Positions 24,179 to 54,259 of a stretch of DNA of 64,000 nt are shown piece by piece. The first letter of the stretch is position 1. Each line of letters opens with the position of its first letter. Source of the DNA: Thermaceae bacterium (GTDB lineage Bacteria; Deinococcota; Deinococci; Deinococcales; Marinithermaceae); NCBI GenBank assembly GCA_026984675.1, contig JALSRQ010000044.1, positions 1 through 64,000 of the forward strand, given 5' to 3'. The notes below the pieces were generated by a model. The model searched no databases, was not told the origin of the DNA, and saw only the letters and a program-made list of their open reading frames with translations. The position numbers and the translations under genes are program-made.

Positions 24179-24206
24179 CCTCGCTTTTGACCACCATTTG
24201 ACCACC

Positions 24207-25331
24207 CTACTGGCAGTTCGGCCCGTCGGCGAGGCCCAAAATGTTTTGCACCGCCCGCTTCATCCGCTCGCGCTCGAGGTGGGTGTAGATGTCGAGGGTC
24301 AGGGCCACGGTGGTGTGCCCCAGCAGGCCGGAGACGGTCTTGGGGTCCACCCCCCGGGCAAGCGCCCGGGTGGCGAAGGTGTGGCGCAGGTCGTGGAAGC
24401 GGTACTCCGGCAGGCCCGCCTTCTTGAGCAGGTTCTTGTAGCCCCGCTCGAGGTTCCGGGGGTTAATCGGCGTCTCGGCGCCGGTCTCGGCGGGGAAGAC
24501 CCAGCCGCCGTAGAGACCGAGCCGTTCCAGCTCCACGCCCCAATCGAGGAGCACGTCGCGTAGGTCGGGCGGCAACGGCAGCACCCGCCGGCTCCCCGTG
24601 GTCTTGGGGTCGCCGACCACGACCTTGCCGTCGACCAGGGTGACGATGCGCTGGATGGCGAGCTCATCATGGTCAAAGTCCACGTCCTCCCAGCGCAGGC
24701 CGAGGACCTCGCCACGCCGGAGGCCCAGGGCCAGGGTGGCGTAGAGGATGGGATAGTAGCGGGTGCCCCTGGCCGCCTCGAGGAGCCGCTCCACCTCGTC
24801 CTGGCTGAGCGCCCTGGCCCGCCGGGTCTCCGGCCGTGTCTTGGGAAGCTCGGCAATTTCGGCGGGGGAGTGCTCCAGGTAGCCGTATCTCACCGCCTTG
24901 CGCAGCGCCGCCCGGAGGAAGGTGCGGACGTGGGCCAGGTGGCTGCGGCCGATCCGGGTGGAGAGGTCCTTGTAGAGAGCCTCGAGCTGGGCCACCTTGA
25001 TCTCGGCCAGGGGGTAGCGGCTCAGGGGCTCCAGGTGCTTGGCGTAGGTGCGGTAGCGGGCCAGGGTGTTGGGCCTGACCTCCCCCTCGCGGCTCTGCAG
25101 GTACCCCTGGATCCACTCGCCGAGCGTGATGGACCGACCGGCGTCCTCGGGGGCCTCCCGGCCGGCCTTGATCAGGAGCTCGGCGCGCTTTCTGAGTGCG
25201 TCTTCCCAGGTGCGCGCGTAGGCCACCAGGCGCCGGCGCCTGCCATCAGGGCCGCGAGGAGCCTCGACGCGGATCTCCCACCGCCCGTCCTGGCGGAGCC
25301 GGATTAGGCCTTCTCCCTTGCGGCGGGGCAT
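24207..25331 (-). CDS. int: Site-specific tyrosine recombinase (phage integrase)
   Basis: HDLRHTFATRALARG...LLGHTTVALTLDIYTH catalytic motif. Confidence 0.95.
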   Translation of the reverse strand: MPRRKGEGLIRLRQDGRWEIRVEAPRGPDGRRRRLVAYARTWEDALRKRAELLIKAGREAPEDAGRSITLGEWIQGYLQSREGEVRPNTLARYRTYAKHLEPLSRYPLAEIKVAQLEALYKDLSTRIGRSHLAHVRTFLRAALRKAVRYGYLEHSPAEIAELPKTRPETRRARALSQDEVERLLEAARGTRYYPILYATLALGLRRGEVLGLRWEDVDFDHDELAIQRIVTLVDGKVVVGDPKTTGSRRVLPLPPDLRDVLLDWGVELERLGLYGGWVFPAETGAETPINPRNLERGYKNLLKKAGLPEYRFHDLRHTFATRALARGVDPKTVSGLLGHTTVALTLDIYTHLERERMKRAVQNILGLADGPNCQ

Positions 25332-25342
25332 GGGTTAAGTAC

Positions 25343-25981
25343 TCAAGGCTTTGGGAAGGTTCTCGAAGCCTCCCAGTGCACTTGGAAATACTCTTTTTGT
25401 CCGCCGACATTTAACGCCAACAGCAAGGTTATTCCTTGCCCATTGTGAAGGGACCTGAACATCGGCATGACTACCCACTCAGTTCGCGAGTCGCTCCAAT
25501 AAATCAGATCACTCGGGGCCGCTAGGTCAGAAAGGATAGCGCCGGGAGGAATGATTGACGGAGGCGCAGGGCGATCCTTCTCAAGGAACTTTTGCCCCTT
25601 ATGCATTACCCTCGAGGCGCTCCCATCTGGCAGGACGATCGAACTGCTAGCCCAGATGATTTCGATGGGCTCTTTGGTCTTGTTTTTTAAGTCAAACTCT
25701 ATTTGCTTGGGGCCACCTTCGGCTATGCCACCTTTTTCGTCGGTGTAAATGACAACGTAATCGGGGACCAAGCTCGCGGCGAACGCAAAATCGCTGGTTT
25801 CAACAACCCAAGATGAGTATTTAGGTTTAACCTTGTAGGTTTCGCCTTTATATTTGGCAGTTGCCATCAGGTAGTCGTAAACATATTCTTTTGCCTTCGG
25901 ACGCGTCATCGTAGGCGCGCAGGCAGAGATAAGCAACAAGACCACAGCGCCGGCTGTCAGAACTCTTGTTTTAAGCTCCAT
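25343..25981 (-). CDS. Prophage-encoded lipoprotein of unknown function (candidate moron)
   Basis: Lipobox MELKTRVLTAGAVVLLLISACAPT; low-GC gene between int and repressor. Confidence 0.7.
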   Translation of the reverse strand: MELKTRVLTAGAVVLLLISACAPTMTRPKAKEYVYDYLMATAKYKGETYKVKPKYSSWVVETSDFAFAASLVPDYVVIYTDEKGGIAEGGPKQIEFDLKNKTKEPIEIIWASSSIVLPDGSASRVMHKGQKFLEKDRPAPPSIIPPGAILSDLAAPSDLIYWSDSRTEWVVMPMFRSLHNGQGITLLLALNVGGQKEYFQVHWEASRTFPKP

Positions 25982-25984
25982 CTC

Positions 25985-26701
25985 CTACCTCCTCACCTTC
26001 CTCGGGTCAAACCCCACGTGCACCACCACGCCCTGGACCTCCACCTGGTCCTCTGGGCTTACCACGATCGGGGGCACCTCGGGGTTCCAGGACTTGAGCA
26101 CCTGGTGGCCTCGACGCCGCTCGAGCTCCTTCAGGTACCCCACCCCCTTGCCCTTGAGCCAGGCGATCACCAGGTCGCCCGGGCGGGGCTCCAGATCGCG
26201 AGCGACCACCACAAAGGAGCCGGGCGGGATGGAGTAGGGGAGGTCCTCGCAGAACATGGAGTCGCCGTCCACCTCGAGGGCGTAGAGCCCGTAAGATCCG
26301 TAGCGCTCGACCACCTCGGAGGACACCTCGATCTCGCCCATCGGCTCGGCGTGGCTCGTGCCGCGACCCGCGGACACCACGCCGAGGAGGGGGACGGTGG
26401 TCATGGTGACTGGGCGAGCGCCCATGCGCTCGAGAGAGGCGCCGGGGAGCTCGATGCCGGTGGCGCGGGTGAACTCTTCGGGGGTCCAGCGAAGGGCGTT
26501 CAGTAGCGCATCCAAAGCTTCTTTGTCGCGTGCCCAGAGATACTTCACGGTCTTCTCCGTATCGCGCAAGAGCTCTTGCGATACCCAACCCTGCGAGCGC
26601 CCGACTCTCATACCAAGCTCCTTTTGGCTTAACCCTAGCTCATGCATCCGCCGACGGATGGCTATTCCAGGCTCTACCGACGCTTCTGCGGCCATCATCA
26701 T
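25985..26701 (-). CDS. Phage repressor: HTH plus S24 peptidase domain (CI/LexA-like)
   Basis: HELGLSQKELGMRVGRSQGWVSQ HTH; VVSAG putative cleavage site; EVDGDSM Ser and GYLKEL Lys. Confidence 0.9.
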   Translation of the reverse strand: MMMAAEASVEPGIAIRRRMHELGLSQKELGMRVGRSQGWVSQELLRDTEKTVKYLWARDKEALDALLNALRWTPEEFTRATGIELPGASLERMGARPVTMTTVPLLGVVSAGRGTSHAEPMGEIEVSSEVVERYGSYGLYALEVDGDSMFCEDLPYSIPPGSFVVVARDLEPRPGDLVIAWLKGKGVGYLKELERRRGHQVLKSWNPEVPPIVVSPEDQVEVQGVVVHVGFDPRKVRR

Positions 26702-26771
26702 TAGCCCCCCTTATGCGTGAGTATAAGTGAAACTATTGACAAGGGTGGTTTATCAGTCGTACTATTGAAGC
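26702..26771. promoter_or_regulatory. Divergent lysis/lysogeny control region
   Basis: Between S24 repressor and Cro-like gene; TTGAC...TACTAT on +; TATACT on -; ACTATTG repeated at 26732 and 26761. Confidence 0.7.
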
Positions 26772-26774
26772 GTG

Positions 26775-27002
26775 ATGCATGAAACTCCCGACGTGATCGG
26801 TGAGAAAATACGCCAGGCAAGGGAAAAGCTCGGCCTTAGCCAGGCGGAGCTGGCGAGCAAAGTGGGCGTCAGCCAAGCCGCAATCAGTCAGTTCGAGAAG
26901 GGCTCCGCGCGCCCGTCGTTGCTCGTGTTCATCCGGCTTTCTCGTGTGCTTGGGCTATCAATGGAGCAACTGATAACCGAGGAGGCCCCTCATGCCCAGT
27001 AG
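26775..27002 (+). CDS. Cro-like HTH transcriptional regulator
   Basis: IRQAREKLGLSQAELASKVGVSQAAISQFEKGSARPS. Confidence 0.9.
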   Translation: MHETPDVIGEKIRQAREKLGLSQAELASKVGVSQAAISQFEKGSARPSLLVFIRLSRVLGLSMEQLITEEAPHAQ

Positions 27003-27363
27003 CTACCTCGAGGCCCGCGAGCGCTACCGCGAGCTCCTGCGGAGGAAGGCCCGGCTCCAGCGGGAGCTCACCGAGCTCGAGGCCGACATCGCCGAGGCGC
27101 TAATCGAGATGCAGCGCCTGGCCGAGCAGAGCTACATCAACGCCGAGCAGGAAACGCTCACCCTGGCCGACGCCGCGAAACTGCTCAACGTCAGCTACCA
27201 CACCGTCTACCAGATGGCCAGGGAGGGTCGGATCCAAACGATCCGCTTCGGCCGCACCTACCGCGTGCCGAGGCGGGCCCTGCGCGATCTGATCGGCCGC
27301 AACGGGGGAAACCCCGAGACCAAAGCGGCGGCCGGGGTGAGGGCCCCGGCCAGAAAGGAGTGA
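26992..27363 (+). CDS. Excisionase-family DNA-binding (HTH) protein
   Basis: LTLADAAKLLNVSYHTVYQMAREGRIQTIRFGRTYRVPRRAL. Confidence 0.85.
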   Translation: MPSSYLEARERYRELLRRKARLQRELTELEADIAEALIEMQRLAEQSYINAEQETLTLADAAKLLNVSYHTVYQMAREGRIQTIRFGRTYRVPRRALRDLIGRNGGNPETKAAAGVRAPARKE

Positions 27364-27367
27364 TAGC

Positions 27368-27571
27368 GTGCCAGCTACCACTAACAGGATACAGCGGACA
27401 GAGGAGTTCCTGCGCGAGGAAATCGCCCGCCTAGCTGATGAGTTAGTCCGCATCGGCTGGGGCGGCATCCGTCCAGAGAGAAGCGAGGAGTACCGCCGCG
27501 TGGCTCGGCGGAAGTGGGAGCTTGAGCAGAAGCTCCTGCGGATCCGGGCAATGAGGGAGGTGGCGCGGTGA
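27368..27571 (+). CDS. Small phage hypothetical protein
   Basis: ORF in collinear early operon. Confidence 0.6.
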   Translation: MPATTNRIQRTEEFLREEIARLADELVRIGWGGIRPERSEEYRRVARRKWELEQKLLRIRAMREVAR

Positions 27572-27813
27572 TCCGCGACCTACCCCCCCTTGCCAAGTGG
27601 CGCCACGTCGTCACCTGCCCCGTCTGCGGCGGTGACGGCACGGTGGAGCTCCCCCTCTCCGAGGACCCGGCCGACACCCGGGATCACCGGTGCCCGATCT
27701 GCGAGGGCATCGGCCGGGTGTGGGTCCTGGTCTACGAGATCGAGGGCCTTCCGGGCCGGCGCCTGACCTGGGAGGTCGAGGACCCGGCCTACGAGGAGGT
27801 GGAGGATGCCTAA
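27568..27813 (+). CDS. Small zinc-finger-like phage protein
   Basis: CPVCGGDG...CPICEGIG, DnaJ-like CxxCxGxG pairs. Confidence 0.7.
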   Translation: MIRDLPPLAKWRHVVTCPVCGGDGTVELPLSEDPADTRDHRCPICEGIGRVWVLVYEIEGLPGRRLTWEVEDPAYEEVEDA

Positions 27814-27997
27814 CGCCCTCGGCTGGACCATCCGCGAGAAGTTTGTCGGCTACGAGGTCCTGATCTGGTCCGGGGCCGACGTGCTCTACCGGGGGCACGC
27901 GCGGACCCGGGCCCAGGCCGCCAGGCTCGCCGAGCACTGGCGAAAAAAGCTCCTGCCGGAGGCCTTCCGGCGGGAGGAGAAGGAGGTGGATGCATGA
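27806..27997 (+). CDS. Small phage hypothetical protein
   Basis: Overlapping collinear ORF. Confidence 0.55.
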   Translation: MPNALGWTIREKFVGYEVLIWSGADVLYRGHARTRAQAARLAEHWRKKLLPEAFRREEKEVDA

Positions 27998-28299
27998 TCG
28001 CCCGCGGCCTCGCCCTCATCGCCGGGATCAAGGCCCGGCGCCCAGACCGCATAGTCCGAACCGACCGCAAGCACCTAGCCCGGGCCCTCGAGGCCCGGCG
28101 CCAGGCCCCATCCGAGGCCGACCGGATCGCCGAGCGGCTTAGGGGCCTCGGCTACGAGGTGGCCTACGGCTGGGATCCCGACCTCGGGGACTACGCCGAG
28201 GTGCGTATCGAGGGTCGCCTGGTGGCCCTGGCCAACCGGTGCGGCTCGGTGGAGGCGTGTTTGCGGCAGGTTGCGGGGGAGCTGGGGGTGGGGGTGTGA
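27994..28299 (+). CDS. Phage hypothetical protein
   Basis: Overlapping ATGA junction with previous ORF. Confidence 0.6.
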   Translation: MIARGLALIAGIKARRPDRIVRTDRKHLARALEARRQAPSEADRIAERLRGLGYEVAYGWDPDLGDYAEVRIEGRLVALANRCGSVEACLRQVAGELGVGV

Positions 28300-28805
28300 A
28301 AACCGGGGAAATCCTCATTGAAGCGGCTCGCCGCATGAGTGCGGCTGGTGATCACCTCTTGGCCACGCTGCTGGTAGCTGTGTGGGCAGCCCATACAGCC
28401 CGTGAAGAAGGTGACGAGCGGGGGCGCCAAATGGCCCTCGTAAGCGCTCTTCAGTCGCTTGCCACCGAACGCGGCTACGAGTTCAGCCGGCACTTGACCC
28501 CAGCCCAACCCCAGGACCGGAGGCCAAGCAACATCGCTGCCGTTTTTCTCACTAAGAACGGGGAGATCTTCTTCGCCCCGCCCGGATCGGTAATTGAAAA
28601 GGGGTACTCCCCAGGGTTGGGAAACGTTGTTGAGCTGGGAACTCCAGACCAACGCTACGTCACCCTCGCCTATAACGTGGACGAACCGCATTGTCTCATT
28701 TCTGCAATGCTTGCCGATCTGTCCCGGCAGGCAAAAAGCGGAGTCGCATTCGCGGTACTCGACGTAGCAAAGCTCGCGCAGACCGGCCAGGGGGTTGAAG
28801 GGTGA
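28296..28805 (+). CDS. Phage hypothetical protein, lower GC
   Basis: GTG start overlapping previous stop; no recognised domain. Confidence 0.65.
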   Translation: MKTGEILIEAARRMSAAGDHLLATLLVAVWAAHTAREEGDERGRQMALVSALQSLATERGYEFSRHLTPAQPQDRRPSNIAAVFLTKNGEIFFAPPGSVIEKGYSPGLGNVVELGTPDQRYVTLAYNVDEPHCLISAMLADLSRQAKSGVAFAVLDVAKLAQTGQGVEG

Positions 28806-28993
28806 TCTCCCTCTGGCTCGCCGCCTTCATTGGCTTTGCATCCGGTTTTATCGGCCTCTTCGTTGCCGCCCTGCTCTGCGCCGCGGGGCGGAGCGAGGAC
28901 GCCCTCGAGGCCCGGGAGCGGGCGGGCCTCGAGCTGGAGCTGGACCCGCTCATGGAAAGCGAGGAGGCGGGCCGAAAGCCCGCCGGGAGGTGA
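28802..28993 (+). CDS. Small predicted membrane protein
   Basis: Single hydrophobic N-terminal segment ISLWLAAFIGFASGFIGLFVAALLCAAG. Confidence 0.55.
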   Translation: MISLWLAAFIGFASGFIGLFVAALLCAAGRSEDALEARERAGLELELDPLMESEEAGRKPAGR

Positions 28994-28996
28994 CTC

Positions 28997-29974
28997 ATGA
29001 GTGAGTTGGCCCAGAAGCAGAATACCACCACCGGACTGGTGCCGTCTCCCAGCGAGGCGGCGGAACTGGCCCGCACCAAGATCTTCGCGGGCATACCGGA
29101 CGACGAGGTCAAGCTGGCCCTGGCCATCGCCGGGCGGTACGGGCTCGACCCGCTGCTCCGGCACCTGGTGCTCATCCCCGGAGGCCAGAACCGGCGCTAC
29201 AACGTCTACATCACCCGGGACGGCTTGCTGCACATTGCCCACACCAGCGGCAAGCCGTGGAGCATCGAGATCGACGAGCCGCAGAAGCGGGAGAACCCCT
29301 ACACCGGCCGCGAGGACATCTACCTCAAGGGCCGGGTGAAGGTGCTCGACCCCGCCACCGGTCAGACCCAGGTCTTTGAGGGCGGCGTCTGGTTCAGCGA
29401 GTACAACGCCGGGCGCGGCTCCTGGAAGACCCACCCGGCGGCGATGCACCAGAAGGTGCTCGAGGTCTACCTCCTACGCAGGGCCTTCGACGTGGCCCTG
29501 ACCCCGATCGAGGAGATGGACCGGGTGCAGGCGGTGCAGACCCAGGTGCCACAGCCCGAGCCGGTCCCGGTCGGGGCGCATGTGGAGCCGATCCCAACCG
29601 GCCCCGAGCGCATCAACAAGGCCCAGCTCAGCAAGATCGGGGCCACCCTGAACGAGCTCGGGCTGGTGAACGGGCGGTACCGCGATGTGAAGCTCCGCCT
29701 GGCGGAGATGGTCGTGGGGCGGCAGGTGACCACCTCCAAGGAGCTCACCAAGGAAGAGGCCTCCCGGTTCATCGACTACCTGGAAAAGCTTCGCGAGGGC
29801 CTCCAGGCGGCCGGGGTGAAGGACGCCGCCGAGGCCGCCAGCTACATCACCCGGATGGTCGAGTCGGGGGCGGTCCCGCCCACCGACGTCGAGGCGCTGA
29901 AGGCGGACCTCGAGGCCTTCCGCGCGGTGGGCGGCGACGCCCGCGAGGAGCTCTTCGAGAACGAGGACGCGTAG
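28997..29974 (+). CDS. RecT/Bet-like single-strand annealing protein
   Basis: YGLDPLLRHLVLIPGG..YITRDGLLHIAHTSG...KTHPAAMHQKVLEVYLLRRAFDV. Confidence 0.85.
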   Translation: MSELAQKQNTTTGLVPSPSEAAELARTKIFAGIPDDEVKLALAIAGRYGLDPLLRHLVLIPGGQNRRYNVYITRDGLLHIAHTSGKPWSIEIDEPQKRENPYTGREDIYLKGRVKVLDPATGQTQVFEGGVWFSEYNAGRGSWKTHPAAMHQKVLEVYLLRRAFDVALTPIEEMDRVQAVQTQVPQPEPVPVGAHVEPIPTGPERINKAQLSKIGATLNELGLVNGRYRDVKLRLAEMVVGRQVTTSKELTKEEASRFIDYLEKLREGLQAAGVKDAAEAASYITRMVESGAVPPTDVEALKADLEAFRAVGGDAREELFENEDA

Positions 29975-29976
29975 AC

Positions 29977-30000
29977 GTGGGGGCCCGCTCGGGCCCCCAC
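29977..30000. terminator. Perfect 10-bp stem, 4-nt loop hairpin after recT (no T-run)
   Basis: GTGGGGGCCC-GCTC-GGGCCCCCAC. Confidence 0.55.
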
Positions 30001-30020
30001 CCCTCTGGAGGTGGACGGGT

Positions 30021-30365
30021 TTGCGAGGCGAGATTACCGAAGCGGAACTCACCAGGGCGATCCGGCTCCTCGAGGAGCGCCGCGCTTGGGGGATCGCGCG
30101 CGAAGAGTTCGAGGACCTATTTGGTTCAGACCGACGGGGCCGGCAGGTCATGGCCGAGCTCAGGAAGCGGGGTCGGGCGGCGGTGGTGGTGGCCGCCGGC
30201 CCGGAGGGCAAGGAGGTCTACCGGCTCCCCGAGAACGAGGCGGAGTACCGCCAGTTCCGGACGAAGCTGATCAGCCGGATCAAGGAGCTCGAGGCCGCGC
30301 TCGCCGGGATGGAGCGGGCCTGGGAAGCGGGCGGTGTGCGCGTCGCCCAGGAGCAGCTGTTTTAG
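30021..30365 (+). CDS. Phage hypothetical protein
   Basis: ORF between recT and replication gene. Confidence 0.6.
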   Translation: MRGEITEAELTRAIRLLEERRAWGIAREEFEDLFGSDRRGRQVMAELRKRGRAAVVVAAGPEGKEVYRLPENEAEYRQFRTKLISRIKELEAALAGMERAWEAGGVRVAQEQLF

Positions 30366-30374
30366 GGGGTTGCG

Positions 30375-31250
30375 ATGGCAAGACCAAGAAGCAAGAGCGG
30401 AACGTGGACCAAGGTGCCGAACTGGGTCTTCGCTGTACTGCCAACGCTGAAGCCGCGAGCCCAGGCGGCCCTTTTTGTCCTCGCGGCGGAAGCGAACTTC
30501 GGTCGCGGGCTTGGTCATCTTTCGGTGGCCGAACGCACCGGCGTTGACCCCCGCACGGCTAAGCGAGCGCTCGAAGAACTTATGAGCGCAGGCTACGCAA
30601 CCAAGGAAGGGGGCATCTACCAGCTGGTCGCAGAACCGGAGCACGCTTTGGGCAAGACAGGCGCAAAACGTGCGCAAGGTTTGCAGCAAAACGTGCAAGC
30701 GGACATGCAAGAAACGCCGTCCAGGACGGGGCTCGCGAACGCCGAAGGAAGAAAGGAAGTAAAGGAAGAAGGAAGTATATATAACTCCCCCCCTTACCCC
30801 CCCTCTTCCAGCACCGGACCCTCTGGCCGGTTAGGCGAGGAAGAGGCCGCTAAAGACGCGGGGGTTCAGAGCACCGGACCAACGGCGCTTGAAGCGTCCC
30901 TCGGGCCGGCCGGTCAGGCGATCGTCTTCGTGGCGCCCGGGGCGCTCCACCGCCGGGTGCCCGGGCGGGATTACACCGTCCTCGACCGGCTCCGAGCCTG
31001 GGACGAGATGTGGTCCCCCGAGGAGGTCCGGGCAGCCTGGGCCCAGGCCAAGCGGGACGCCCACACCCACCCGTTGAAGGTCTTCTGGCTGATCCTCGAG
31101 GGCGAGATCCCGCTCGACGCCTCACTGGTCGAGCGCCCGCCGGAACTGCGAAGGCCCAAAAAGCCCTACCGCGAGTACCGCTACATCGGCATCGACGACG
31201 TGCCCGACCCGCTCGAGGTGCTTTATGGCCGCAAACCTGCCTCGGCGTGA
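30375..31250 (+). CDS. Phage replication initiation-like protein (winged HTH)
   Basis: LSVAERTGVDPRTAKRALEELMSAGYATKEGG; upstream of dnaB-like helicase. Confidence 0.7.
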   Translation: MARPRSKSGTWTKVPNWVFAVLPTLKPRAQAALFVLAAEANFGRGLGHLSVAERTGVDPRTAKRALEELMSAGYATKEGGIYQLVAEPEHALGKTGAKRAQGLQQNVQADMQETPSRTGLANAEGRKEVKEEGSIYNSPPYPPSSSTGPSGRLGEEEAAKDAGVQSTGPTALEASLGPAGQAIVFVAPGALHRRVPGRDYTVLDRLRAWDEMWSPEEVRAAWAQAKRDAHTHPLKVFWLILEGEIPLDASLVERPPELRRPKKPYREYRYIGIDDVPDPLEVLYGRKPASA

Positions 31251-32397
31251 CCTCGAGCGCATCACGCTCTCCTACGCCCTGGCCGGGCTGATCCGGCCCG
31301 AGCCCGAGCTCTACGCCATCCCGGAACACCGCACCCTGGCCGAGGCTCTGGCCGAGCACGGCCCCGAGGGGGTGGCGCTCGCCGAGGTCGAGCCCTCGCT
31401 GATCGCCAGCGTCACCGACCTGTACCTGGACTACGGCTCGGTGGCCGCCGAGGAGATGCAGCGCCGCCTGCGGGAAGCGGTGCGGCGCCAGCGAGTCACG
31501 GAGGCCGCCCTCCGGGTGGCCCAGGCGGCCAAGCGCGGCGAGGACTACCTGGCGGCCGTAGAGGCGCTCACCGAGGCGGCGGAAGGGCGCGAGGAGCGGG
31601 GCGCCGTGCCCGCGAGGGAGGCGGCGCGGCTCGCGCTCGAGCGCTGGCGGGCCGAGCGCGAGGGGCGCAGGAAGCCCCCGATCGCGGTGGCCCGCGACCC
31701 CGCCTTTCCCAGCTTCGACGGCGGCGGCCACTACATCCTGGCCGCCCGCACCGCGGTGGGGAAGACCGCGCTCGCCCTGCAGTTCGCCCTCATCGCCGCC
31801 CGGGCGGGGCGGAAGGTGGTCTTCTACAGCCTCGAGATGCCCGCCTGGACCCTCGGCGCCCGACTGATCTCGCAGGTGCTAGGGATCCCGCTGCACGAGC
31901 TCCGGGACGCGGAGGGCCTGGAGCGCGCCCTGGCGCTTCTCGACGTGCCGCTTTTCGTGCGCGACGACGTGGACCACGCCGAGGCGCTCTACGCCGACAT
32001 GCGCAGGGCGGGGGCCGACTTCTACGTGGTCGACTACCTTGGCCTGGTGCACCCCAGCGCCCGTGAGGAGCGCCGGGAGCTCGAGGTCGCCCGGATCAGC
32101 CGGGCCCTGAAGCGCCTGGCGGTGAAGCTCGACGTGCCCGTGCTCACCCTGGCCCAGATCAACCGGCAGGCCGAGCAGAAGCGCGACAAGCGCCCCGAGC
32201 TTTCGCACCTCCGCGACTCGGGGGCCATCGAGCAGGACGCCGACGTGGTGATGCTGCTCTGGCGCAAGCCCGAGCCCGGCGGAACCCTCTCCGACGAGGG
32301 CGAGCTGGTGGTGGCCAAGAACCGCCACGGCCCCACCGGGGTCTGGCCGGTGCACTTCCAGGGCGCGGCGCTCCGGTTTGCCTGGGAGGGGGCATGA
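31225..32397 (+). CDS. DnaB-like replicative helicase
   Basis: ILAARTAVGKTALALQFAL Walker A; FYSLEM; VVDYLGLV; SHLRDSGAIEQDADVVMLLWR. Confidence 0.93.
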   Translation: MAANLPRRDLERITLSYALAGLIRPEPELYAIPEHRTLAEALAEHGPEGVALAEVEPSLIASVTDLYLDYGSVAAEEMQRRLREAVRRQRVTEAALRVAQAAKRGEDYLAAVEALTEAAEGREERGAVPAREAARLALERWRAEREGRRKPPIAVARDPAFPSFDGGGHYILAARTAVGKTALALQFALIAARAGRKVVFYSLEMPAWTLGARLISQVLGIPLHELRDAEGLERALALLDVPLFVRDDVDHAEALYADMRRAGADFYVVDYLGLVHPSAREERRELEVARISRALKRLAVKLDVPVLTLAQINRQAEQKRDKRPELSHLRDSGAIEQDADVVMLLWRKPEPGGTLSDEGELVVAKNRHGPTGVWPVHFQGAALRFAWEGA

Positions 32398-34273: not shown

Positions 34274-34276
34274 GAC

Positions 34277-34861: not shown

Positions 34862-34863
34862 GG

Positions 34864-36424: not shown

Positions 36425-36443
36425 TTGTCACAAGGTCACAACT

Positions 36444-39239: not shown

Positions 39240-39883
39240 CGCTTGAAAAGCTCGGTGAGATCATCCGCCGCCTCGAAGAGCGCTTCGAGCGCGAGGGGCG
39301 TCGCGACCTCCTCGAGCGCATGTACCGGCTCATCGACCGCGGCGACATCTGGGTCCTCTGGAACTGGGCGGCCAACATGCGACTGGTTTCCGCGCAGGCG
39401 GCCTGGACCGCCCACGCGATGTGGCTCAAGGGTCTGAAGGCCCACCCCCCACCCGCGCGGCTGGAGTGCATGATCCAGCGGGCCTACGACTGGGGCGGGG
39501 TGGTGGCCGCCCGGTTCCAGGCGGTCATGGTGCGGGAGCGGCCCGGCATCCACCCCCGCTTGTGGCTCAAGCTCGCGGTCCGTGCCGGGGTGCGCGGCGG
39601 CTGGGCCGAGGGGGCTCGCGAGGCCGCCGAGGAGGCCGGCGCCGGGTTCAAGACCTGGATCCGCACCTGGCCGGCGAAGGAGCCCCGCGACTGGCACGAC
39701 GCCCTCGAGGGCAAGACCATCCCCGCCAATGCCCTCTTCACCCTTCCCGGCGGCCCAAACATCGGCGCGAAGGTCGAGGCGCCCCACGACTGGCAGCGCC
39801 TGCCCGACCCCGCCGAGTGGATCAACTGCGGGCACGCGGTGGTCTACACCCCGCACGCCCGTCTGCGCGACCTGGCGAGGTGA
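39236..39883 (+). CDS. Minor head / MuF-like head morphogenesis protein
   Basis: C-terminal RDWHDALEGKTIPANALFTLPGGPNIGAKVEAPHDW..PAEWINCGHAV. Confidence 0.65.
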   Translation: MTLEKLGEIIRRLEERFEREGRRDLLERMYRLIDRGDIWVLWNWAANMRLVSAQAAWTAHAMWLKGLKAHPPPARLECMIQRAYDWGGVVAARFQAVMVRERPGIHPRLWLKLAVRAGVRGGWAEGAREAAEEAGAGFKTWIRTWPAKEPRDWHDALEGKTIPANALFTLPGGPNIGAKVEAPHDWQRLPDPAEWINCGHAVVYTPHARLRDLAR

Positions 39884-39886
39884 ACG

Positions 39887-42149: not shown

Positions 42150-42160
42150 GGTAGACCGCC

Positions 42161-44804: not shown

Positions 44805-44812
44805 GAGGGCGC

Positions 44813-45452: not shown

Positions 45453-48400
45453 ACTGGAGATCGTCCTCCGCCTCAGGGACGAGGCCACCCGGGCCCTGAA
45501 GCGGGCCCAGGGGGCCCTGAAGGGCCTCGAGGGGGAGCTGAAGCGGGCGAAGGCGGCGGCGGCCAGACTGAACGCCGAACTCGAGGCCGCCGCCCCGCAC
45601 AGCCTGAAGCTGGCGGCGGCGGTCTCCGCCGCCGGGGCGAGCCTCGCCGGGCTCGGCGTGAAGGCGATCGCCACCGCCGGCCAGTTCGAGCAGATGCGGA
45701 TCGCCTTCACCACCATGCTGGGCTCAGCGGAGAAGGCCGACCGCTTCCTCCGCGAGCTCTACGACTTCGCCGCCAAGACGCCCTTCGAGATCGAGGGGCT
45801 ACAGCAGCAGGTCCAGCTCCTCCTCGCCCTCGGGTTCAAGGCTGAGGAGGTGATCCCCACCCTGCGGGCGGTTGGCGACGCGGTGGCCGCCCTCGGCGGT
45901 TCGAGCGCCCTCCTGGATCGGGTAGTGCTCGCCCTCGGCCAGATCCGGGCCAAGGGCAAGGTGTCGGCCGAGGAGATGCGCCAGCTCGCCGAGGCCGGGA
46001 TCCCCGCCTGGGAGATGCTCGCCAAGAAGATCGGCGTCGACATCCCCACCGCCATGAAGCTCGCCCAGCAGGGAGCCATCGACGCCGCCACTGGGGTCTC
46101 GGCGATCCTCGAGGGCATGCAGGAGCGCTTCGCAGGCATGATGGAGCTTCAGAGCCGAACGCTCCTCGGCATTTGGTCCAACATCAAGGACAACCTGACC
46201 CGCACGCTCGCCGCCCTGGGCGAGGACCTCGACCGCACTTTCCACGTTCGGGAGGGCATGCAGGCGTTCCTCGCCTGGCTCGACCGGGTGCGGGCGTGGT
46301 TCGAGGGTGGGGGGATCCGGCGGTTTTTGAGGGAGCACGCCCGGAGCATCTTCGAGCTCGCCGGAGCCATCACCGGCGCCTTGCTGCCTGCCCTGGTCCA
46401 GGCCATCCGCGGCCTCGCGCTTTTTGCCGCCCGCCTCGCCCCCTGGGCCGCGGCAGGGTACGCGGCGGTAAAGGCGCTCGAGGCCCTCGGCGTATCCCTC
46501 GCCGATCTCAAGCGCTGGGCCGCGCTCGGGGCCCAGGCGATCAGCGGGCTCGGGAAGATCTTCCAGGCCGTGGTTGCCGACGCGGCCGGGGTGATCGCGT
46601 TCTGGCGGCGAGCGCTGAGCGGCATGATGGATGCTTTTCGCCGAGCGCTCTTCTTCCTGGATCGGGCATGGAAAGCGATCCAGGAGCGAAACATAGCGGG
46701 CGCCCGTTTCGCCCTGCAAACCGCCGCTACCGCGCTGTCGGGAAGCCTCGCACAGGCATTCGACGCAGCGACGCAGCAGAGCGCCGTCTTCTTCGACCGC
46801 GCCAACAAACTCGCCGAGGACGGGCTGACCAGGCTCTTTATGACGATGGACGGCACGCTCGGCGAAACCGCCCGGGCGACCCAGAAGGCCTTCAGCGAGA
46901 TCGTTGCCGGAGCCCGCCAGCTGAGCAAGAGCCTGACTGCGCTGGCGGGCGGCGGGAGCGCGCCCATCCCACAGCTAAATGCTGGCCTCGAGCAGACCGG
47001 CGATAAGGCGGACCAGGCGAAGGACAAGATCCTCTCCCTCAACGAGGCCATCCGGCGCCAGCTGGATCTCCTCGGCCAGACCGCGCCGCGGGTGGCCGAG
47101 TACGCGCAGGCCTTCCTGGGCGTGGTGTCGCCGCGAGAGGAGGCGCCGACCGCCAGCGGCGGCCAGACCCCAACCTGGCTCTTCCGCATGCCAGGCTACC
47201 GCCGCCGCCACGGGGGGCTCAGGGCCGAGATGCGAGCCCAGGCCGAGGCCGAACGGGAGGCCCTCGAGGCCGCTTCCAAGCTCACCGACGCGGAGCGGGA
47301 CCGCCGCCAGGCCCTCGCCGAGATCCGCGCCGAGCAAAAGCGGCTAAACGAGCTTGAGAAGGAGCACCTCGAGCTCCAGCAAAGCCTGCTCCGGGCGCGG
47401 CAGATGGAGATCGCCCGCATGCGCCGGCTCCTTGCTGAAGCCTCCAAGCTCACCGCTGCCGAGGCGGACCGGCGGCGGGCGGCGAGGGAACTTGGCAAGG
47501 TCTGGACGTACCAGGGCCAGCTCTACCGCGAGCACCTGCAGTATCAACGAAGCCTGCTCCGGGCGCGGGAGATGGAGATCAAAAAGGCCGAGGAGCTGAC
47601 TCGTAAGGAAAGGGAGCGCCTCCGGCTCGCCGAGCGGTACGTCAGCACCATCCAGACCGTCTACTCCGGCCTCAACCGCGTGCTCTCCTCGTTTAGCAAG
47701 GTGGGCAAGGACACCGGCGCGGCCATCCGGGATCTCTGGGGCGGCTTTGCCGACCTGGCCAAGGCCATCCCGGTGGTGGGCGGGCTCCTGAGCAAGGTCT
47801 TCAGCTTCTTCGGCTCCATCGCCGAGGGCCTCTACAAGCTCACCTGGCAGGCTACCGTCGAGAGCCTGAACCGGGCCAGGGCCGCCTACGAGAAGCTCGG
47901 CGAGCAGATGGTGCTGATCCACCAGCGCGCCTACGCTCGCATCAAGAAGTACCAGGAACGCTACTTCTTCGGCTTGATCAGCGTCGACCGGTACAAGGTC
48001 GAGGTGGACAAGTTCGCGCTGAAGATCGCCCAGACCCTGGAGCAAGGGGTCCTCGGCGGGCTCAGGAACGCGATGCGGGCGTTCCTCGAGGGCGCCCAGG
48101 ACTGGCAGGAGCAGCTCAAGGAGGGCCTCCGTTCCGCGATCGAGAACGCCGTCATCGAGGCGGTGATCCAGGGGGCGATCTTCAAGGGCGTGCTCGGTGA
48201 GGCGCTGACCAAGCTGACCGAGGCCCTGGCCAAGGGCAACTACGAAGCCGCCCGGACGTACGTCCGGGACATTGCGGCCCAGGTGCCCGAGCTGACCAAG
48301 AAGATCGCCGGGGTGCTCGAGCCCTTCCGTCGAGAAATGGCCGGCCTCAGGGGCGGGAAGAGCGGGGGAGAGGGCGGCTTGACCACCCCCGGCACCCAGA

Positions 48401-48576
48401 CCATCCGCTACGAGCTACCCACGGCCCCGGTGCTCGCCGCTCCTGCCTGGGTGGACGAGATGGGCCGGCACGTGGCGAAGTTCGGGGAGGCGGTGGATCG
48501 GTTTGCGAAAGCTCGGATTAGCGTGGACGTTCGCCTTTCTGGCGATCTGGCTTACAGCGTGCGGGGGCTTGCGTGA
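45439..48576 (+). CDS. Tail tape measure protein
   Basis: 1045 aa; GQFEQMRIAFTTMLGSAEKADRFLRELYDFAAKTPFE..; coiled coils and hydrophobic central segments. Confidence 0.92.
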   Translation: MPRNELEIVLRLRDEATRALKRAQGALKGLEGELKRAKAAAARLNAELEAAAPHSLKLAAAVSAAGASLAGLGVKAIATAGQFEQMRIAFTTMLGSAEKADRFLRELYDFAAKTPFEIEGLQQQVQLLLALGFKAEEVIPTLRAVGDAVAALGGSSALLDRVVLALGQIRAKGKVSAEEMRQLAEAGIPAWEMLAKKIGVDIPTAMKLAQQGAIDAATGVSAILEGMQERFAGMMELQSRTLLGIWSNIKDNLTRTLAALGEDLDRTFHVREGMQAFLAWLDRVRAWFEGGGIRRFLREHARSIFELAGAITGALLPALVQAIRGLALFAARLAPWAAAGYAAVKALEALGVSLADLKRWAALGAQAISGLGKIFQAVVADAAGVIAFWRRALSGMMDAFRRALFFLDRAWKAIQERNIAGARFALQTAATALSGSLAQAFDAATQQSAVFFDRANKLAEDGLTRLFMTMDGTLGETARATQKAFSEIVAGARQLSKSLTALAGGGSAPIPQLNAGLEQTGDKADQAKDKILSLNEAIRRQLDLLGQTAPRVAEYAQAFLGVVSPREEAPTASGGQTPTWLFRMPGYRRRHGGLRAEMRAQAEAEREALEAASKLTDAERDRRQALAEIRAEQKRLNELEKEHLELQQSLLRARQMEIARMRRLLAEASKLTAAEADRRRAARELGKVWTYQGQLYREHLQYQRSLLRAREMEIKKAEELTRKERERLRLAERYVSTIQTVYSGLNRVLSSFSKVGKDTGAAIRDLWGGFADLAKAIPVVGGLLSKVFSFFGSIAEGLYKLTWQATVESLNRARAAYEKLGEQMVLIHQRAYARIKKYQERYFFGLISVDRYKVEVDKFALKIAQTLEQGVLGGLRNAMRAFLEGAQDWQEQLKEGLRSAIENAVIEAVIQGAIFKGVLGEALTKLTEALAKGNYEAARTYVRDIAAQVPELTKKIAGVLEPFRREMAGLRGGKSGGEGGLTTPGTQTIRYELPTAPVLAAPAWVDEMGRHVAKFGEAVDRFAKARISVDVRLSGDLAYSVRGLA

Positions 48577-50140
48577 GCCTCAGCAGGACATCCGCTACTA
48601 CTCGACACACGCTAAGGGGAGGCCGGCGTTGAGCTGGGAATTGCGCGTCTGGACGCCCAACAAGGCCACGCTCAAGGCCACCTACACCGACGCCAGTCCG
48701 GGTGGCATCGCCGAGGGGTTCCGGTGGTCGGTCCGGGGCGACGGCAACTGCGAGCAGATGCGGTTCCAGGCGGCGCCCTCTAAGGTCGACATCGCCGCCC
48801 GCGATGTGGTGCAGCTCCTGGTGGATGGGCAGCCGGCGTTCTACGGCTACATCGAGACCTCCTGGCCAGCGAATGACGGCCGGGTGCGGGGGTACGTGGC
48901 GGTGGGGGCGGATCGGCTCCTGCAACAACGGCTCATGGACTCGACAACCTACGCCGAGCAAGATGTGGGCGCGATCGTGCGGGACATCGCCTCAAGGCTC
49001 CTGCATCCGGCGATCACCTATGACCCGGCGCGGGTGCCGGACACGGGCCGGAAGATCGTAATGGGTCCTAGCATTTTGGTTCCGCTTGCCCAGGTGCTCT
49101 CTGATTTAGCGCGTAGCGTTCCAGGTATTACGTGGGGTGTAGATGCCACCGGGGCATTCTGGTTCGCGCCAGAGTCTTCGTCCATTTCGGTCGGCTATGC
49201 CGAGCACGGCCTAAACTGGCTTCCTGTTGAAGGGGAGGAGGTCGTGACTCAGGTAGCGCTCCTGATGGCTTTACCGCCCGCGCCAGGAAATGCCGAGGTA
49301 TGGGAGTCGTTTTCCGGTGCTGGATACGGGTATGAGCAACGTGATCTACCAAATCGGTACTATGTTCACTACTACGAAGACCCGAGTAATGCTACGTATG
49401 GGGCGGAAAAGGCATATGTGTACCGCGATGCCATTGTGCCGTGGGCGGAGCGCGGAAGCAATGTCAGCGGTACGGTCAGCAATCCTACCAACGCAAGTGA
49501 CGGAAATGCGGCCACATACGCATCCGGCCCAGGTGATCTGACAGCAACACCGGGCCCTGGGACCCAGCGTTATGCCCCGCGCGCCACGATCATCTATGAG
49601 TCCACCGAAGCGGGTGGCACAGCGACTCTGAGGCACTCCTGCACAAACGCTGGGGCGATTACCGGTGACTGGTTGCGTATAGACCTCCCAAATACTGGCG
49701 GCAAACCGCGTTTAATCGAGCTCGTTTTGCCCGTCCTGGGGCCCAGCGGATTTTGTGAAACGGCTGGTACCTGGCTAGACATGGGTGGCATCCCGGCGTC
49801 GGGAAAGGTCTACGAAGTGGAGTTCTACGAATACGACACCGTCAGACTTGATAACTACGCTCGCTCCCTCATCCGCTTACCATCCCAAACCCCCGCCGAG
49901 GTCGAGTGGCCGGGCTACCACCCGCCTGCCCGCTACCTCACCGTCACCGGCGCCCCCGGCGGCGACCTCACCGGCGAGGTGGAGACCTGGGAGTACGAGT
50001 GGACCCCCCGCCGCATGCGGAGCGTGGCCAGGATGGGCTCGCGCGGCGCCGATCCGGCCGCCCGGGCCATCCGCATCCTCGCTGACCGGCGCCGCAAGGA
50101 GGCAGAGGGCACCGCCCTGGCCCTGACCAGGAGGAGGTGA
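48569..50140 (+). CDS. Tail protein downstream of tape measure (start uncertain: TTG 48569 or TTG 48503)
   Basis: Long ORF in tail module; mosaic composition. Confidence 0.7.
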   Translation: MREPQQDIRYYSTHAKGRPALSWELRVWTPNKATLKATYTDASPGGIAEGFRWSVRGDGNCEQMRFQAAPSKVDIAARDVVQLLVDGQPAFYGYIETSWPANDGRVRGYVAVGADRLLQQRLMDSTTYAEQDVGAIVRDIASRLLHPAITYDPARVPDTGRKIVMGPSILVPLAQVLSDLARSVPGITWGVDATGAFWFAPESSSISVGYAEHGLNWLPVEGEEVVTQVALLMALPPAPGNAEVWESFSGAGYGYEQRDLPNRYYVHYYEDPSNATYGAEKAYVYRDAIVPWAERGSNVSGTVSNPTNASDGNAATYASGPGDLTATPGPGTQRYAPRATIIYESTEAGGTATLRHSCTNAGAITGDWLRIDLPNTGGKPRLIELVLPVLGPSGFCETAGTWLDMGGIPASGKVYEVEFYEYDTVRLDNYARSLIRLPSQTPAEVEWPGYHPPARYLTVTGAPGGDLTGEVETWEYEWTPRRMRSVARMGSRGADPAARAIRILADRRRKEAEGTALALTRRR

Positions 50141-50143
50141 CCC

Positions 50144-50560
50144 GTGCCCTGGACGATCACCGACGGCACCAACACGGAGACGCTGACCGTCCTCAACACC
50201 CCCAGCCTCGACCACGCGATCGCCGTCGAGGCCTACGACTCCTCGGCGGGAATCAAGGTGCGGGGCGACCGGCTTCCCGAGGCCAAGCCGCTCGTCGTCG
50301 AGGTCGGCATTCACGAGGCGGACTATGGAGCGGCTCTCGCTAAGCTCTCGCGCATCCTGGCCATCGCCAAAGCAGGCGGGACGCTTCGCTACACCGAGGG
50401 CTCGGAGACGATCTCGCGGGCGTTTTTTGGCCTGAAGGGTTACGAAACCACCCGGCTGCTGCCCGCCCAGGGGCTGATCGAGGTGCGCCTCGAGCTGCTC
50501 CCGACCGCCCCCTACTGGTCGAGCACCAGCATGGGTGGCCGGGTGGTCTGGGTCTGGTAG
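50144..50560 (+). CDS. Tail hypothetical protein
   Basis: Collinear ORF in tail module. Confidence 0.6.
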   Translation: MPWTITDGTNTETLTVLNTPSLDHAIAVEAYDSSAGIKVRGDRLPEAKPLVVEVGIHEADYGAALAKLSRILAIAKAGGTLRYTEGSETISRAFFGLKGYETTRLLPAQGLIEVRLELLPTAPYWSSTSMGGRVVWVW

Positions 50561-50569
50561 GAGGCGAGC

Positions 50570-51043
50570 ATGCAGGTCTACCTGGACGACGGCGCCGGAG
50601 GCGAGACCAGGATCGTGGCCGTCTCCGGCATCGAGAGCCTGCTTCAGCACGCGTGGGCCCTCGACGTGGTGCGCCCGCCCCAGTCCGAGCAGTACGTCGA
50701 GGTCGGACTGGGCAATGACCTGCCCCGCGAGGTGGCCATCACCGCGTACGCCGGGGCCACCGGCGGCGCAAGCGGCGCCCAGGCGGTGGAGGCGCTCACG
50801 AACGCCGCCGAGGCCGCTCGCTGGCTCTACGTCGAGCACGGCGGCGACGCGGTGGTCGCGCACCTCGCCGCTTTCCAGGGCGCGGGCGGCGTGCAGCCGC
50901 GCGGGGCATTCAGCTACACCCTCGAGCTCCGCTGGATCGCGGACGCGGTGAGCCGTGCCGGACCTCTGACCAGCGACGACGGCGCCGACATGCTCACCGA
51001 CGACGGCGGGTCCTACCTGATCCTTTGGGAGGAGGGAATATAG
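50570..51043 (+). CDS. Tail hypothetical protein
   Basis: Collinear ORF in tail module. Confidence 0.6.
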   Translation: MQVYLDDGAGGETRIVAVSGIESLLQHAWALDVVRPPQSEQYVEVGLGNDLPREVAITAYAGATGGASGAQAVEALTNAAEAARWLYVEHGGDAVVAHLAAFQGAGGVQPRGAFSYTLELRWIADAVSRAGPLTSDDGADMLTDDGGSYLILWEEGI

Positions 51044-51550
51044 GTGGCGAACAAGACGTTCTCGAACTGGCTAGCATCCCTGGCGCAAGCCACGGTAGCC
51101 CCAGGTGACCTGATCCCGGTGGTGCAGGGTGGAGTCAGCAAGCGGGCCGCCGCCGGGCAGGCGGGCGGCCTAGCCACCCTCGATGCCAACGGCATGCCTC
51201 TCGACGCCAGCGGAACCCCAATCGTGGCCTACGGCTCCAACGCAAACGGCGAGTACGTGCGGTTCGCGGACGGGACGCAGATTTGCTGGGGGATGGTTGA
51301 CTTGGGCAACTTCACCGCAGACGGCTCGAAGCAGGCAGCAACAATAACCCTTCCTGCGGCATTCGTCAATCCCCCCAAACCGGCTGGGAGCGTGATTGAG
51401 GGCACGAACATCAATGGGGCCGCATTCTACGAGCAAGGAGGTATGGATGCACCTGATGGCACAACCGTACGTGTGGCATGGAGGAGCAGTTATGGCGGGG
51501 CGTCGATAAACGCAACATGCCGCTACGTTGCCATCGGGAGGTGGAAATGA
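51044..51550 (+). CDS. Tail fiber-like protein
   Basis: GSNANGEYVRFADGTQICWG...TLPAAFVNPPKP...CRYVAIGRW typical phage fiber C-terminal motif. Confidence 0.8.
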   Translation: MANKTFSNWLASLAQATVAPGDLIPVVQGGVSKRAAAGQAGGLATLDANGMPLDASGTPIVAYGSNANGEYVRFADGTQICWGMVDLGNFTADGSKQAATITLPAAFVNPPKPAGSVIEGTNINGAAFYEQGGMDAPDGTTVRVAWRSSYGGASINATCRYVAIGRWK

Positions 51551-51840
51551 TTAGAATCAGCTATAACTCTCAGTTCGGGCTCCCGGGCAAGCGCATCGCC
51601 TACTCCTGGTCCGGCCGGGTACTCACGGCAACGCTAGAGCCAGACGGCCTCAGCGAGGCGTTCGATTTTTCGGCCCTCCAGCCCGGCGACCGCGTGATGG
51701 AGATCGTGCCCGATGTATTGCCGTTCTCGCCCGTCGTGAGGGCCGAGGTGAACGACGCGGGCGATCTACACGTAGTGCTCCTCTACTGGCACCAGCCTGG
51801 GGAGCCAGATAGCAAGCCCGAGGAGGTCCTAAATGGCTAA
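51547..51840 (+). CDS. Phage hypothetical protein (tail fiber-associated)
   Basis: ATGA overlap with fiber gene. Confidence 0.55.
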   Translation: MIRISYNSQFGLPGKRIAYSWSGRVLTATLEPDGLSEAFDFSALQPGDRVMEIVPDVLPFSPVVRAEVNDAGDLHVVLLYWHQPGEPDSKPEEVLNG

Positions 51841-52489
51841 GCTCCAGGTCGAGACACTCGCCGACCGCCAGCATGCGGCAATGGAGGCCATCCGAGCCCA
51901 GCGCGCCCAGCGCCTGGCGCAAAGCGACTGGGTGGAGGCGCCCGACGCCTCCATATCGGCCGCCGCACGCGCCGGGTGGCGGGTTTACCGCCAACTGCTC
52001 CGCGACTGGCCTGCGCGGGTGGCGGACCCGCTCAACCCCCCGCCCTGGCCGGATGACCCGGCAATGGTGGGTACCACCGATACCTACCTCATCATCGCTC
52101 ACGGTGGATACCCCGACGGTGGGCTGGTCTATGGGGACCCAACCTTAGTCACCGACTGGGTGGCGCGGGTGCGGGCTGCGGCCCAGCGCAGGCTCCAGCT
52201 CAACGCCGCTGCCGCCCTGCATGTGATCCGCGCCGAGCTCGCTGAGGCCCAGGAGGCGGAAGCGCTGGGGGTTCCGCCCCCTGGTGGGCGCTCGAGCACC
52301 CAGCTCCAAACCCTGATCCAGCAGGGGCAGACGGCGTTTAAGAGCGTTTACCAGGCTGTTCAGTCGGCGACCACCATCGCCGGCATCAACGCCGCGCTGG
52401 AGGCCGCCCGCCAGCAAGGCCTCGACTGGCTTGTCGGTCCTGACTGGGATCCCTACCCCGAGACCTGTCCCTGGACGGTGGCAACCTGA
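51833..52489 (+). CDS. Phage hypothetical protein (tail fiber-associated)
   Basis: Collinear ORF. Confidence 0.6.
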   Translation: MAKLQVETLADRQHAAMEAIRAQRAQRLAQSDWVEAPDASISAAARAGWRVYRQLLRDWPARVADPLNPPPWPDDPAMVGTTDTYLIIAHGGYPDGGLVYGDPTLVTDWVARVRAAAQRRLQLNAAAALHVIRAELAEAQEAEALGVPPPGGRSSTQLQTLIQQGQTAFKSVYQAVQSATTIAGINAALEAARQQGLDWLVGPDWDPYPETCPWTVAT

Positions 52490-52509
52490 ACCAAGAAGGA
52501 GGTGAGCAC

Positions 52510-52536
52510 GGCCCCGCGCGAAGCGGGGCCTTTTTT
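52510..52536. terminator. Rho-independent terminator immediately before endolysin ATG
   Basis: GGCCCCGC-gcgaa-GCGGGGCC-TTTTTT. Confidence 0.85.
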
Positions 52537-53118
52537 ATGAGCACCTTCGAACTCGCCCTGGCCGAGGTCCTCCGCTGGGAGGGGGGCTACGTCAACGATG
52601 CCAACGACCCCGGCGGAGCCACCAACCGGGGCATCACCCAGGCCACCTACAATGCCTGGAGGCGGGATCGCGGCGAGCCGCCCCGGCCGGTGGCCGAGAT
52701 CGGCGAGGACGAGGTCCGGGCGATCTACCGCGAGCGCTACTGGGTCCCGGCGGCCGCCTACTGGGACGCCGCCGGCCACCCCGGCATCGCCCTCTACCTC
52801 TTCGACGCCGCCGTGCAGCACGGGGTGAGCACCGCGCGGGCGTTTGAGCGCCGTCTGGCCGACGTCCTCCGCCTGCACCCGCTACTCGGGCTGGCTTACC
52901 TGCACCGCGACCGGACGCTCTACTACGCCCGGCTTCGCCATTTCGCCCACTTCGGCCGCGGCTGGATGCGCCGGATCGCGAGCATTTACGCCAGAGCAAT
53001 GGAGCTCGAGCACCCCGGCGGTCTGATCCGGGTCCACCGGTTCTTCCTCGACGGGCACGAGCACCCCCTGGCAGCGGCCCGCTGGGTGGGGGAGAAGCTC
53101 TACGTGCGGAGGGCGTGA
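52537..53118 (+). CDS. Endolysin, GH108-like with C-terminal peptidoglycan-binding-like region
   Basis: LRWEGGYVNDANDPGGATNRGIT catalytic motif. Confidence 0.9.
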   Translation: MSTFELALAEVLRWEGGYVNDANDPGGATNRGITQATYNAWRRDRGEPPRPVAEIGEDEVRAIYRERYWVPAAAYWDAAGHPGIALYLFDAAVQHGVSTARAFERRLADVLRLHPLLGLAYLHRDRTLYYARLRHFAHFGRGWMRRIASIYARAMELEHPGGLIRVHRFFLDGHEHPLAAARWVGEKLYVRRA

Positions 53119-53396
53119 TGAGGGCGTTCTTCCGATCCTGGCACGCGGTGGCCCTGCTCTGGGCCCTGCTGGTGGTGGTGGCGGTGGGCCTTGGGTTTTA
53201 CTCCCTGGCCGTCGGCTACGCGATCCTCGGCGCCGCGCTCCTTATCGCTGAGCGCATCGAGATCGCACGAACCGGGCGGACGATCAGCGAGAACACCGGA
53301 ATCGAGCTGAACCACCGCCCCTGGAAAGTCTGGCTCCTGGCGGCGAGTTTGCTCGCCGCAATGGGCATGCTGGTGGCCCACTTCTGGGCCTATTAG
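53118..53396 (+). CDS. Membrane protein in lysis module (holin candidate)
   Basis: Several hydrophobic segments; overlaps endolysin stop. Confidence 0.6.
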   Translation: MRAFFRSWHAVALLWALLVVVAVGLGFYSLAVGYAILGAALLIAERIEIARTGRTISENTGIELNHRPWKVWLLAASLLAAMGMLVAHFWAY

Positions 53397-53406
53397 GAGG
53401 GAAACC

Positions 53407-53634
53407 ATGAAAGAGAAAAAGGCGTTTTGGAAAAGCAAGACCTTCTGGGGCATGGTGGTCACCGCCATCGTGCTCTTCTACCAGGCGCTGGAGCAGGCTC
53501 TTGGCCTGCCTCCGATCCCCGACGAGGTACTGAAGCTCCTGGGGGCCGCCGGGCTCCTGCTGGTGGGGTACGGCCGTGCGGTGGCGAACAAGCCTCTGGG
53601 TCTTAGCGACTACGGCCGCGCTCGCACCCGCTAG
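53407..53634 (+). CDS. Holin-like small membrane protein
   Basis: KAFWKSKTFWGMVVTAIVLFYQALEQALGLPPIPDEVLKLLGAAGLLLVGYGRAV. Confidence 0.65.
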   Translation: MKEKKAFWKSKTFWGMVVTAIVLFYQALEQALGLPPIPDEVLKLLGAAGLLLVGYGRAVANKPLGLSDYGRARTR

Positions 53635-53905
53635 CCTGGTCCTGGCCGGCCGGGCAGGGTTCCGCGCCGAGTACGGACCGACGGGCTTCAGCTTGCGCGG
53701 CTACCTCGAGGAGACCCTGGCCCGCCTGGGGCCCATCGAGGTCACCGCCGGCCTCGACCTCCGCCTGCCCGAGGTCGAGGCCACCCCCTACACGGCGGCG
53801 ATCTACGAGGGGGCGTGGTACTGGCTCGCGGTGGAGGTTGCGAAGCCGGTGCCGGGGGATCCCGGAGCGTTCCGCTTCGCGGTGATGGGCGGATGGGAGT
53901 GGTGA
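53576..53905 (+). CDS. Small secreted/envelope protein overlapping the holin-like gene
   Basis: Signal-like MRWRTSLWVLATTAALAPASLVLAG; 59-nt overlap with 53407-53634. Confidence 0.55.
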   Translation: MRWRTSLWVLATTAALAPASLVLAGRAGFRAEYGPTGFSLRGYLEETLARLGPIEVTAGLDLRLPEVEATPYTAAIYEGAWYWLAVEVAKPVPGDPGAFRFAVMGGWEW

Positions 53906-54210
53906 CGTTGGGGGAATTCGACGACGACAAGCTCAGACGCGTGCACGAGCGGCTCGACGTGCTCGATCGCCAGGTGGCGGTGCTGGAGGCCCACGTCGCC
54001 GACCTTAGAGCCGACATGAAACGGGTGGATACCGAGCACAACGCCACCCGCCGGCTCCTGGTTGAACTCAGAGCCGACGTGAAGTACATCCGCGAGCGCC
54101 TCGACGCCAGGTCCGGCGCCCCCGATTGGCCGAAGATCGCGGCGACCCTGATCGCCATCATCTCCACCGGGGTGCTCATCATCATGGAGCTGGTGCGCCG
54201 GTTGCCGTGA
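53893..54210 (+). CDS. Coiled-coil plus C-terminal TM protein (XhlA-like)
   Basis: RRVHERLDVLDRQVAVLEAHVADLRADMKRV...IAATLIAIISTGVLIIMELV. Confidence 0.6.
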   Translation: MGVVTLGEFDDDKLRRVHERLDVLDRQVAVLEAHVADLRADMKRVDTEHNATRRLLVELRADVKYIRERLDARSGAPDWPKIAATLIAIISTGVLIIMELVRRLP

Positions 54211-54259
54211 CCACCCGTTGACCACCATTCGCCCCTCAAACGAGCTGAAAGGAGGAAAA

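Follow-up and report, generated by a model that had tools for sequence, protein, structure and literature searches.

At both ends of the prophage contained in the window (the whole stretch of 64,000 nucleotides that was analysed), a short repeat is present as a direct pair with an 11-bp period, and sequence comparison indicates that the four copies are very probably arm-type binding sites of the prophage's own tyrosine integrase. Paired arm-type sites are a known kind of site, newly located in this prophage, and the arm pairs of phiMa-like phages are apparently new relative to the literature searched. The features concerned are as follows.

24060-24136, plus strand: tRNA-Ile (GAT) gene found by ARAGORN, the host attachment gene, intact at the left junction and uninterrupted in L231 and L232
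24091-24136, plus strand: left att core of 46 bp, from the tRNA-Ile anticodon loop to the CCA end, identical over 46 bp to 54334-54379
24146-24183, no strand assigned: hairpin resembling a terminator, located between core and inner arm pair, its T run entering the first repeat
24187-24195, plus strand: putative arm-type site, integrase side, copy 1, TTGACCACC (counterpart in phiMa at +95)
24198-24206, plus strand: putative arm-type site, integrase side, copy 2, TTGACCACC (counterpart in phiMa at +106)
24207-25331, minus strand: tyrosine integrase of 374 aa (Pfam PF00589, E=1.1e-26; AlphaFold2 pLDDT 90; best PDB relative Tn1549 Int)
25985-26701, minus strand: LexA/CI-like repressor (PHROG 4, E=3.8e-27)
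26992-27363, plus strand: excisionase-like helix-turn-helix (HTH) protein, candidate directionality factor (PHROG 66, E=1.2e-10)
53815-54210, plus strand: last phage ORF (from the ORF list and the sequence), its stop inside the outer repeat
54207-54215, plus strand: putative arm-type site, far side, copy 1, GTGACCACC (counterpart in phiMa at -126)
54218-54226, plus strand: putative arm-type site, far side, copy 2, TTGACCACC (counterpart in phiMa at -115)
54334-54379, plus strand: right att core, a displaced 3' fragment of tRNA-Ile identical to the left core

The prophage extends from core to core (24091-54379). Besides the integrase, the repressor and the excisionase-like protein, the genes between the cores encode a DnaB-like helicase, a major head protein, a tape measure protein and an endolysin; thus, the element is a tailed-phage prophage. 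The empty site is found in L231 and L232, of the same genus, where the tRNA-Ile gene directly joins a homologue of the right flank. Both repeat pairs lie just inside the 46-bp att core and flank it once attP is rebuilt, with a separation of 223 bp between the two pairs. An ORF of 212 aa between the integrase and repressor genes (25343-25981) has no PHROG match; putative defence genes occupy this slot in Thermus phages, according to PMC11437467. ARAGORN also called a 93-nt tRNA-Pro (agg) at 39575-39667, in the structural gene region of the prophage, which may be a false positive.

All four repeats were found at exactly the coordinates that the original prediction had given, all on the plus strand, and the 11-bp period and common orientation claimed for them hold in each of the two pairs. 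The left pair (ending at 24206) does abut the stop codon of the integrase gene (starting at 24207), but the right pair, which had been said to abut the last phage ORF, overlaps it instead, with the TGA stop (54208-54210) falling within the first repeat. In the 2.08-Mb genome there are exactly two occurrences of the tandem pattern TGACCACC-NNN-TGACCACC, one at each prophage end (24187-24206 and 54207-54226); a whole-genome search that allowed up to one mismatch in its 8+8 bases returned the two prophage ends only, and the next best match has two mismatches. Counting the repeat across prophage and host, as had been proposed, gave a divided answer: the single 9-mer is frequent elsewhere (91 copies genome-wide, 9 within the window), the outcome that had been named in advance as a refutation, whereas the 11-bp-phased pair is unique to both ends. 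Since the 9-mer is so common, its count would show no enrichment near att, and monomer counting was set aside as an uninformative test of specificity. Another 110 genomes of the phylum yielded a single additional pair. No tRNA lies beside the pair in G083. The genome contains about six times as many copies of TTGACCACC as of the pattern read backwards (91 versus 15), an excess that is probably due to codon usage.

The integrases of the Thermus phages phiMa and Cumys are about 80% identical to that of the window, and both phages have the same tRNA-Ile core. Relative to the core, TGACCACC starts at -127/-116 and +96/+107 in the window and at -126/-115 and +95/+106 in phiMa, so that the pairs have the same orientation and distances that agree within 1-2 bp; TGACCACC is common to all eight copies, and the preceding base is variable. 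Exactly two pairs each are present in phiMa (51.8 kb), in Cumys, where they too have the orientation of those in the window, and in an unrelated 42.5-kb virus contig (G111), which has them at both contig ends, one of them directly after a distantly related integrase gene. The outer arm, about 107 bp from pair to core, is 56% identical between the window and phiMa, a value also reached by the best of 200 shuffles (their mean being 50%); thus, the geometry and the repeat have been kept, and the rest of the outer arm has not. The tRNA-Ile core of phiMa and the integration of its relatives at tRNA-Ile are reported in PMC11437467, the available part of which does not mention the repeats.

A plain search of virus contigs for the pair yielded mostly unrelated loci, an integrase being present in the fetched stretch for only 7 of 120, and was rejected as an approach. 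Four loci with distant integrases (L025, L082, L102 and L223) have a pair at the 3' end of the integrase gene; the backward control pattern gave no match. These loci were found via the motif and share it by construction, so that the evidence they provide is its position at the integrase 3' end only. Three or four copies of TGACCACC in a row were noted in the virus contigs L031, L122, L136 and L030. Another contig (L058/L015; IMGVR_UViG_3300020567_000394) has a single tRNA-Ile core with an IN93-like integrase on one side and, facing it, a phiMa-like integrase on the other; tandem integration of two different phages at one tRNA gene would be expected to give this arrangement.

Elements with other integrases have other repeats in the same geometry. 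Thermus phage Lalka27a (integrase 38% identical), for which use of tRNA-Ala is reported in PMC11437467, has pairs of TTAGCTACAC at the integrase stop codon and, counting across the ends of the record, about 200 bp beyond it, and its sequence predicts that these are its arm sites. In IN93 and Tsatsa, which have the same tRNA-Ile core as the window, the repeats near the integrase gene and core are of the TTGACACCT type, not TTGACCACC, as they are in two same-genus elements with tRNA cores (L005 and L006); the integrases of these four are 36-40% identical to that of the window (36-39% for IN93 and Tsatsa). The TTGACACCT repeats of the related tRNA-targeting elements L005, L006, L018 and L019 are one step from TTGACCACC, and elements with TTGACACCT and with TTGACCACC would be useful pairs for mapping the integrase residues that read the site.

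The integrase of the window was modelled (AlphaFold2, mean pLDDT 90) as an N-terminal domain of three strands and a helix, followed by a core-binding domain and a catalytic domain. The elements of the N-terminal domain in the full model are strands 10-12, 18-24 and 33-39 and helix 42-55; the domain modelled alone has the same elements at lower confidence. The catalytic residues R205, H313, R316, H339 and Y349 are invariant across 12 integrases. Among solved relatives, Tn1549 Int ranks first by sequence, and it and lambda Int rank best by fold. The isolated N-terminal domain has no significant match among arm-binding domains in the PDB, by sequence or by fold, and the Pfam arm-binding model Arm-DNA-bind_4 matches 3 of the 12 aligned relatives but not the integrase of the window, so that the domain is assigned as arm-binding by its topology and position. 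For the IntTn916 subgroup, PMC8138268 describes an arm-binding domain of three strands and one helix, which is also the topology modelled here. The phiMa geometry, the pairs in relatives and this predicted N-terminal domain together support the original prediction that the repeats are arm-type sites, the comparison with related phages being independent and the strongest evidence.

In the circular phage DNA, direct pairs lie about 107 bp before and about 50 bp after the tRNA-Ile core, the latter beside the integrase stop codon, and we infer that each copy of TGACCACC would be bound by a single integrase molecule through its small N-terminal domain. With a step of 11 bp, two subunits would be neighbours on the same face of the helix, and bending of the DNA would let the same subunits reach the core and the host tRNA-Ile gene. 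Strand exchange probably takes place within the 7-base anticodon loop, CTGATAA, where a 7-bp overlap is suggested by the start of the tRNA-Ile identity: exactly at the loop in IN93 and Tsatsa, and one base before it in the window and in phiMa. After integration one pair would remain at each junction, so that excision would need both, presumably helped by the excisionase-like protein.

The sequence between the left core and the inner pair is also structured, with a predicted folding energy of -32.3 kcal/mol (z -5.1) for 24140-24206, and phiMa has a similar hairpin between core and inner pair. The hairpin probably ends transcription of tRNA-Ile once the phage has displaced the host's own terminator. 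It is near-identical to the terminator after tRNA-Ile in a same-genus genome (G010; locus L239), which suggests that the phage arm derives from the 3' flank of a host tRNA or else that G010 retains an element remnant.

The 3' flanks of integrase genes were surveyed without reference to any motif. The sample consisted of 77 non-redundant flanks gathered by protein similarity, the criterion was an exact repeat of at least 8 bp at a given lag, and the controls were dinucleotide shuffles and a stretch inside the same integrase genes. At lag 11 a repeat was present in 34 of the 77 flanks, compared with 0.4 in shuffles and none inside the integrase genes. Lag 12 gave 8 and other lags 0 to 5, near background except for a smaller excess at lags 10 and 12. 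When 35 flanks with a pair at lag 11 were checked for a second one, 14 were scored as having a direct and 2 an inverted second pair; shuffles gave none. Two of the direct second pairs, both in L015, are weak matches in the tRNA core and were discounted; the remaining 12 or so lie 170-290 bp away, and are a lower bound because integrated copies cannot show a second pair beside the integrase gene. Similarity of the N-terminal domains was uncorrelated overall with similarity of the repeats among 40 integrases, and the nearest N-terminal domains (57-99% identical, some of them near-duplicates) nearly always share the repeat.

On the evidence of the survey, 11-bp phasing may serve generally for finding the arm sites of such integrases. 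It is an evenly balanced proposition that arm-binding integrases as a family are marked by a direct pair with this phase, of any sequence, with two subunits that would always dock one helical turn apart on each arm while the sequence that they recognise changes freely. No systematic report of such a sequence-independent signature was found in the open-licence papers searched. If the proposition is true, arm sites, att arms and element ends could be read from sequence in uncharacterised phages and ICEs, and matched sets of integrases and repeats could yield a recognition code.

It is improbable, although less so than the other alternatives, that the binder of the repeats is not the integrase but the excisionase or the phage repressor. 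Excisionases, too, bind tandem direct repeats beside att cores and bend DNA, and genes for an excisionase-like HTH protein and a LexA-like repressor lie nearby. The former is itself conserved (41% identical to the annotated excisionase of Cumys), and so conserved sites do not by themselves tell integrase from excisionase. Excisionase sites are usually in one arm, however, whereas identical pairs are present here in both, and lag-11 pairs turned up in many unrelated phages when the integrase gene was the only guide. The intergenic region of the repressor and excisionase genes contains no pair. Much less probable is that TTGACCACC, as a common word of a GC-rich genome, stands at both ends by chance or as a by-product of coding: the 9-mer is abundant and the right pair is partly coding, but the pair is present at the two ends only, with 0.07 pairs expected genome-wide from the monomer rate, and the same position, orientation and phase in phiMa already refute this explanation. 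There is equally little to recommend a host DNA-bending or terminus-recognition protein as the binder, since the repeats do lie beside the core at both ends of the element, where accessory bending proteins act, but the host genome has no further copy of the pair and the phylum almost none, and the occurrence of different repeats at the same positions in Thermus thermophilus phages is the expectation for a phage-encoded binder.

With the repeats read as integrase arm sites, the window provides a complete predicted attP for a thermophile prophage, comprising the core, both arm pairs, the terminator, the integrase and a candidate excisionase, and comparison extends the prediction to the attP of phiMa and Cumys, which infect a laboratory Thermus strain. 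The window's arm sequence between pair and core is unrelated to theirs. Such a predicted attP could be the basis for a heat-stable site-specific integration system.

Among better known systems, the attP of lambda resembles that predicted here in having arms that flank the core and an integrase for both core and arms. Lambda attP has five arm sites (P1, P2 and P'1-P'3) together with IHF and Xis sites; the four repeats of the window differ from these in forming two direct pairs, one on each side, and in their sequence. The label "lambda-type" in the original prediction was loose, and the two-plus-two direct layout with a Tn1549-like integrase fits L5 and Giles and the IntTn916 subgroup better. 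The integrases of Tn916 and Tn1549 likewise have a domain of three strands and a helix followed by core-binding and catalytic domains; these elements insert with little site preference (PMC8138268), whereas the element in the window uses a tRNA-Ile core. The mycobacteriophages L5, Giles and CrimD have an attP whose common core is flanked by two pairs of 11-bp repeats, in direct orientation in L5 and Giles and inverted to each other in CrimD, which also has a putative terminator between the core and a pair (PMC3203893), and pairs of putative arm sites have been noted in other actinobacteriophages (PMC10865867). The prophage in the window is like L5 and Giles in its direct pairs of about 11 bp on both sides of the common core, and like CrimD in its hairpin between core and pair; it differs from all three in the sequences of its repeats and core and in phylum, and from L5 also in that L5 has extra sites, and its integrase is 33% identical to that of Giles.
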